A DNA stretch of 38,300 nucleotides from a virus, in the IMG/VR virus record IMGVR_UViG_3300042402_000518, positions 1 through 38,300 of that record; one strand, 5' to 3'. A model generated the notes under the pieces. It ran no database searches, was not told the DNA's origin, and saw nothing but the letters and a program-made list of their open reading frames with translations. A program made the position numbers and the translations under genes. Below are positions 13,122 to 13,377 of the stretch, in pieces; the first letter of the stretch is position 1, and every line of letters begins with the position of its first letter.

Positions 13122-13172
13122 TTTCAATAGGTTTGGGCGTATGAGACGAATGAACGCTTTTCAATAGGTTTG
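13122..13172 (+). repeat. Two direct repeats of a 14-mer at the origin-region edge
   Basis: TTTCAATAGGTTTG occurs at 13122-13135 and again at 13159-13172, a 37-base period, just left of the first DnaA box. Could be an iteron-type pair; two copies alone are weak evidence. Confidence 0.5.
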
Positions 13173-13377
13173 CCCAAGTTATCCACAGGCCGACTTCAAC
13201 CTATACGCTATATGTTTTGTTATCTAAGAAAGGGCGTATATTCTACGTCCTATATTTATAATATATGTCCTATAGTATACGCCCGTAATAAGTATATATA
13301 TGCTATATCCAGACCAAGTTATCCACAAGTTATCCACAGGGTTGTCCACAGACCACTCCCGTAGAAGGGAGGGGTAG

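Follow-up and report, generated by a model that had tools for sequence, protein, structure and literature searches.

How does a phage in which no replication protein can be recognized begin to copy its DNA, and does a compact array of DnaA boxes ahead of its early genes provide the starting point? The phage in question is uncultured and has a genome of ~38 kb, represented by the IMG/VR record IMGVR_UViG_3300042402_000518 (38,300 bp; this whole stretch is referred to as the window). An exact end repeat of 127 bp supports a circular assembly, with a circle of 38,173 bp. An earlier note on this DNA had proposed that the array recruits the DnaA protein of the host. Judged from sequence comparisons, this appears to be the most economical reading, and it is partly supported: the array is real and conserved and no replication genes were found, but GC skew, an inverted repeat, and a 14-mer repeat that might have strengthened the case add little or nothing. 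We regard as evenly balanced the specific proposal that the region 13179-13350 is a DnaA-dependent origin of the plasmid or oriC type, which would use the host replisome without any phage initiator and then pass the products to recombination.

The early genes of the phage run rightward between 11.6 and 18.9 kb, and the late genes run leftward. Searches of PHROG, Pfam, and NCBIfam identified an anti-restriction protein, a RecE-like exonuclease, a Rad52-like annealing protein, an SSB-like protein, and a resolvase-like nuclease, as well as capsid, portal, terminase, tail fiber, and lysis proteins. Two glycosyltransferase-like proteins of the early operon (14284-14994 and 17870-18631, the second in 10 of 11 genomes) have weak family matches and possibly modify DNA or the host surface. 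Four large late proteins encoded at 22885-29996 (805, 434, 376, and 767 aa) matched nothing in PHROG and nothing significantly in Pfam; those at 25304-26608 and 26608-27738 are present in all 11 genomes compared, and the four are perhaps virion or ejection proteins. No tRNA genes were found, the window and two sister phages had no Rfam matches, and the region 12500-18900 had no DNA homologs among sequenced phages. A search for the host through genome contigs returned only two MAG contigs, labeled Balneolaceae and Alphaproteobacteria; both are possibly binned phage, and the host assignment was dropped.

DnaA boxes and the AT-rich core

The array consists of one rightward box, an AT-rich core of ~130 bp, and a head-to-tail triplet of boxes. 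The solitary box TTATCCACA (13179-13187, plus strand) is an exact match and forms the left border of the core. The triplet TTATCCACA-TTATCCACA-TTGTCCACA (13319-13350) has its members at 13319-13327, 13330-13338, and 13342-13350, all on the plus strand and spaced by 11 and 12 bp, or about one helical turn. Thus, the three perfect boxes and the fourth variant reported in the earlier note, three of them at helical-turn spacing, are indeed exact matches in the described arrangement. The perfect box occurs three times in the circle (0.33 expected), each time within this array, and clusters of four TTRTCCACA motifs in 172 bp would be expected ~3e-9 times. The first box is separated from the second by 131 bp (13188-13318), the proposed DNA unwinding element. 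This stretch was correctly described as AT-rich and flanked by boxes: among all 100-bp windows of the circle, 13208-13307 ranks second in instability. The least stable one, 11373-11472, is the divergent intergenic region between the late and early operons; it contains no DnaA boxes, and its instability probably reflects promoters. At the position homologous to the core, relatives have a median AT percentile of 0.993 (n = 58). The locus therefore combines the two elements of an oriC-type origin, a cluster of DnaA boxes at 13179-13350 and an adjacent AT-rich unstable element, and both the confinement of perfect boxes to this site and the very unstable stretch adjoining them are points in favor of an origin.

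The same combination, a cluster of high-affinity boxes bordering an AT-rich unstable stretch, is seen in the bacterial origins of E. coli, B. subtilis (BUS), and T. maritima. The head-to-tail orientation of boxes is likewise shared, and the 2-3 bp that separate neighboring boxes of the phage triplet are a functional distance in T. maritima oriC (PMC10316083). Unlike these origins, the phage has no dnaA gene and no DnaA-trios, and its triplet faces away from the core; the orientation of E. coli R1 is opposite to that of the phage triplet. According to the published rule for DnaA-trios of the BUS type (PMC8287927), trios lie within 16 bp of a box and three triplets are needed. No DnaA-trios were found within 16 bp of any box, the longest run being two triplets, and TAG/CTA is not enriched in the cores of the lineage; this reading was rejected on both grounds. 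The missing trios and the orientation of the triplet count against an origin, as does the lack of support from GC skew. A check of GC skew around 13,200, suggested in the earlier note, revealed no inflection that could be ascribed to an origin at 13.2 kb: the skew tracks transcription, and the GC3 arms are inconsistent with replication proceeding in both directions from this position, so skew was rejected as origin evidence.

Two repeats described along with the boxes are present, but they contribute little. The inverted repeat (13232-13284; arms GGGCGTATA at 13232-13240 and TATACGCCC at 13276-13284) does enclose two copies of GTCCTATA (13247-13254 and 13267-13274); however, it is kept in one core type only, and a hairpin was rejected because the predicted folding is no stronger than that of dinucleotide shuffles (z -0.1 and -1.4). 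The 14-mer TTTCAATAGGTTTG is directly repeated at 13122-13135 and 13159-13172, but homology to relatives begins 6 bp to the left of the first box, which places the 14-mer outside the conserved module.

Replication genes and the early recombination genes

Scans of nearly all plausible ORFs against PHROG, Pfam, and NCBIfam yielded no initiator, helicase, primase, polymerase, integrase, or repressor, which bears out the observation that the circle has no recognizable replication gene. The window and 14 relatives had no match to the DnaB, Prim-Pol, Rep_3, DnaA, and DnaC-like families in searches where control genomes gave positives; an unrelated array-bearing phage was positive for Prim-Pol. Profile searches of the early proteins, proposed as a way of finding a cryptic initiator, likewise returned no initiator match, and several small early proteins were assigned to no family in PHROG and Pfam scans. 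The lack of replication-family matches in these 15 genomes, together with early genes devoted to recombination, appears to favor the origin reading.

The conserved early kit across 11 genomes is one of recombination. The RecE-like exonuclease (15016-15933, plus strand; phrog_434, 2e-40, and a YqaJ match in Pfam), the Rad52-type single-strand annealing protein (15944-16765, plus strand; PF04098, 1.4e-4), and the SSB-like protein (17006-17293, plus strand; phrog_18154, 2.3e-5) were found in all 11, and the RusA-like resolvase or nuclease (17455-17817, plus strand; phrog_244, 9.6e-19) was found in nine. The best structural match of the modeled annealing protein (pLDDT 78.6) is human RAD52 (probability 1.00, E 1.3e-4), which assigns this protein to the recombination machinery; it has the Rad52 fold as well as the sequence family, although the model is of moderate quality and full-length TM-scores are low. 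The possibility that it is an initiator in disguise was rejected because of this fold. The beta model of the SSB-like protein was set aside, its confidence being too low to use. Lambda-type early regions similarly combine an exonuclease, an annealing protein, and further recombination functions in one operon, but no initiator or helicase loader of the O/P type was recognized in this phage.

Under the origin reading, host DnaA would bind the triplet cooperatively and the solitary box across the core, the resulting complex would melt the AT-rich core between them and load the DnaB helicase of the host, and the infecting circle would be copied by the host replisome with no initiator supplied by the phage. 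The RecE exonuclease, the annealing protein, the SSB-like protein, and the resolvase would afterward convert these initial copies into concatemers that can be packaged.

Conservation of the array and exchange of the core

RecE and TerL were used to retrieve relatives, and a search for the DNA pattern of the triplet provided an independent route; protein-retrieved loci were counted only when they had at least 2.6 kb of upstream sequence. Absence of the boxes from close relatives had been named beforehand as evidence against the proposal; of the 36 protein-retrieved relatives whose RecE is at least 50% identical, 29 have tandem boxes upstream of the gene for this protein. Among the other seven, several have a degenerate triplet with unchanged spacing. 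The nearest relatives L004, L006, and L019 have a single perfect box left in the triplet, which is a point against the origin reading. None of the eight protein-retrieved relatives with RecE less than 50% identical has tandem boxes, and relatives with RecE identity of 40-47% and an array are present among the pattern matches listed; as these were chosen for having the array, they demonstrate its occurrence rather than its frequency. The presence of the array thus appears patchy in the deep tree. On the RecE tree, its gain and loss require 10 changes, compared with ~22 for shuffled labels. Retention upstream of RecE over a wide lineage, seen both by protein search and by DNA pattern, seems to support an origin. 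The solitary box is less constant, and this counts against the origin reading: of the 40 array-bearing relatives whose RecE is at least 50% identical, 19 have a box within 300 bp upstream, and none was found in 39 of all 58 array-bearing relatives.

In the nearest clade, the core has been exchanged. There, L008 and L011 have one type of core and L007, L010, and L013 another; the two (131 and 196 bp) are AT-rich and unrelated, with the same flanking boxes. L008 and L010 are identical from position -50 to the end of the solitary box. Their cores have nothing in common, and the similarity resumes inside the array region; between L008 and L013 the match restarts at the first base of the triplet, with 93% identity over 1,089 bp. 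The breakpoints of the swap are therefore the solitary box on the left and the triplet on the right, while the downstream genes are ~93% identical and none of them sorts with core type. Among pairs whose RecE genes are at least 88% identical, five have unalignable cores and 73 have alignable ones, and the swap may thus be a single event. Lineage-wide, there are 12 core types, all of them AT-rich (0.62-0.85). Together with the box-bounded swap, this indicates from sequence that the boxes are the constant part and the core is an exchangeable AT-rich stretch, and both observations seem to favor an origin. Such exchange would be compatible with an unwinding element that DnaA opens from its flanks, but not easily with a dedicated initiator that is encoded downstream and reads the core.

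Such an initiator is nevertheless at the center of the alternative that survives best: the locus would be an origin, but a phage protein of an unrecognized family would bind repeats in the core, with DnaA only assisting, as in iteron plasmids and P1 oriR. We consider this unlikely, though worth keeping in view. DnaA boxes, an AT-rich region, and short repeats are combined in the origins of iteron plasmids and of the phage-plasmid P1, and the phage resembles them in this respect. Several cores have short repeats, and although the window contains no regular iteron array, CTATA/TATAG words are twofold enriched across cores (53 versus 25.5 expected). These words could be binding sites of an unrecognized protein; their enrichment argues against the core as pure filler and is a point against the origin reading without a phage initiator. 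The several small early proteins without a family also fit this alternative. Moreover, sister phages with RecE identity of 40-49%, including GenBank MW202753 and MW202825, lack the array and must begin replication somehow. They have no annotated or visible replication genes either, which also counts against the DnaA-only reading, and the lineage may thus own an unrecognized initiation system. On the other hand, the phage has no Rep gene, there is no Rep_3 match, the annealing protein is accounted for by its fold, and the core was exchanged without any matching allele change downstream. No single gene is found between the array and RecE in every member; in some, the two are separated by as little as 336-374 bp, and therefore no adjacent gene is obligatory.

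In the array-less sisters, a long noncoding and apparently structured stretch lies between the anti-restriction and RecE genes (L248:32231-32720 and L126:5881-6450). As RNA, the former folds better than shuffles (z -4.0) and the latter less so (z -1.4); neither has an Rfam match, and the stretch is possibly an alternative control or origin element.

Arrays in other phages and remaining explanations

Head-to-tail TTATCCACA arrays with 11/12-bp spacing are not restricted to this lineage. Among the matches listed, they occur in many unrelated viral contigs (GC 0.26-0.67), and isolated T7-like Berlinviruses and T5-like phages also bear them; the arrays of the viral contigs and Berlinviruses are located at the pattern loci L129-L247, at L252:20-150, and at L253:1700-1950. 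Berlinvirus arrays lie in the noncoding region beside terL, and in one T5-like phage the array is inside the annotated terminal repeat. T7 and T5 phages encode their own replication enzymes, and an array-bearing group with a GC content of 65% carries a primase-polymerase gene and has its array away from any markedly AT-rich core. The T5-like phages, the Berlinviruses, and this group share the arrangement and spacing of boxes with the phage studied here but differ from it in owning replication enzymes and, in the T5-like phages and Berlinviruses, in the position of the array near terminal regions. Their arrays are a further point against the origin reading, and the array alone is therefore no proof of an origin, let alone the sole one.

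Such arrays, as well as the existence of array-less sisters, are compatible with another role, that of an early-promoter switch controlled by DnaA or a decoy that titrates host DnaA, with replication beginning elsewhere. The array lies 0.1-0.2 kb upstream of early genes and is followed by TTGACA (13426-13431, plus strand), a possible though weak -35 element of an early promoter that recurs after the array in relatives. We find this explanation quite unlikely: a sigma-70 scan gave no full promoter match, four boxes are few for titration at low copy, and it leaves unexplained why the core is unstable, why a further box borders it on the far side, and why the cassette is bounded by boxes. A last explanation, in which the array would be a physical end of the genome or a stop site for injection like those of T5-like and some T7-like phages, is very improbable. 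It would fit the terminal location of arrays in those phages, and the T5 injection stop signal is described as including DnaA boxes (PMC13250531), but we rejected it because the contig ends of near-complete relatives are scattered over the whole circle, with no fixed end at the array, and the array is ~4 kb from terL with divergent operons between them.

With its AT-rich core, its solitary box, and no visible alternative, the array in this lineage is best read as an origin, although the odds are roughly even. In the open-license literature, we found no report of a phage origin that DnaA fires unaided by an initiator of the phage. The broader claim, that a whole lineage of tailed phages lacks its own initiator, host DnaA alone firing a lytic origin with a swappable core bounded by boxes and recombination enzymes finishing the job, is more tentative, and we lean somewhat against it. 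That unrelated phages carry the same head-to-tail array suggests that phages make wider use of host DnaA, in a way that has been little studied. If the origin reading is true, a widespread lineage of uncultured phages begins lytic DNA synthesis with the initiator of its host, and its replication would be tied to the supply of DnaA and the cell-cycle state of the host. The system would then also offer a compact natural test of what DNA is sufficient for DnaA-driven opening outside oriC.
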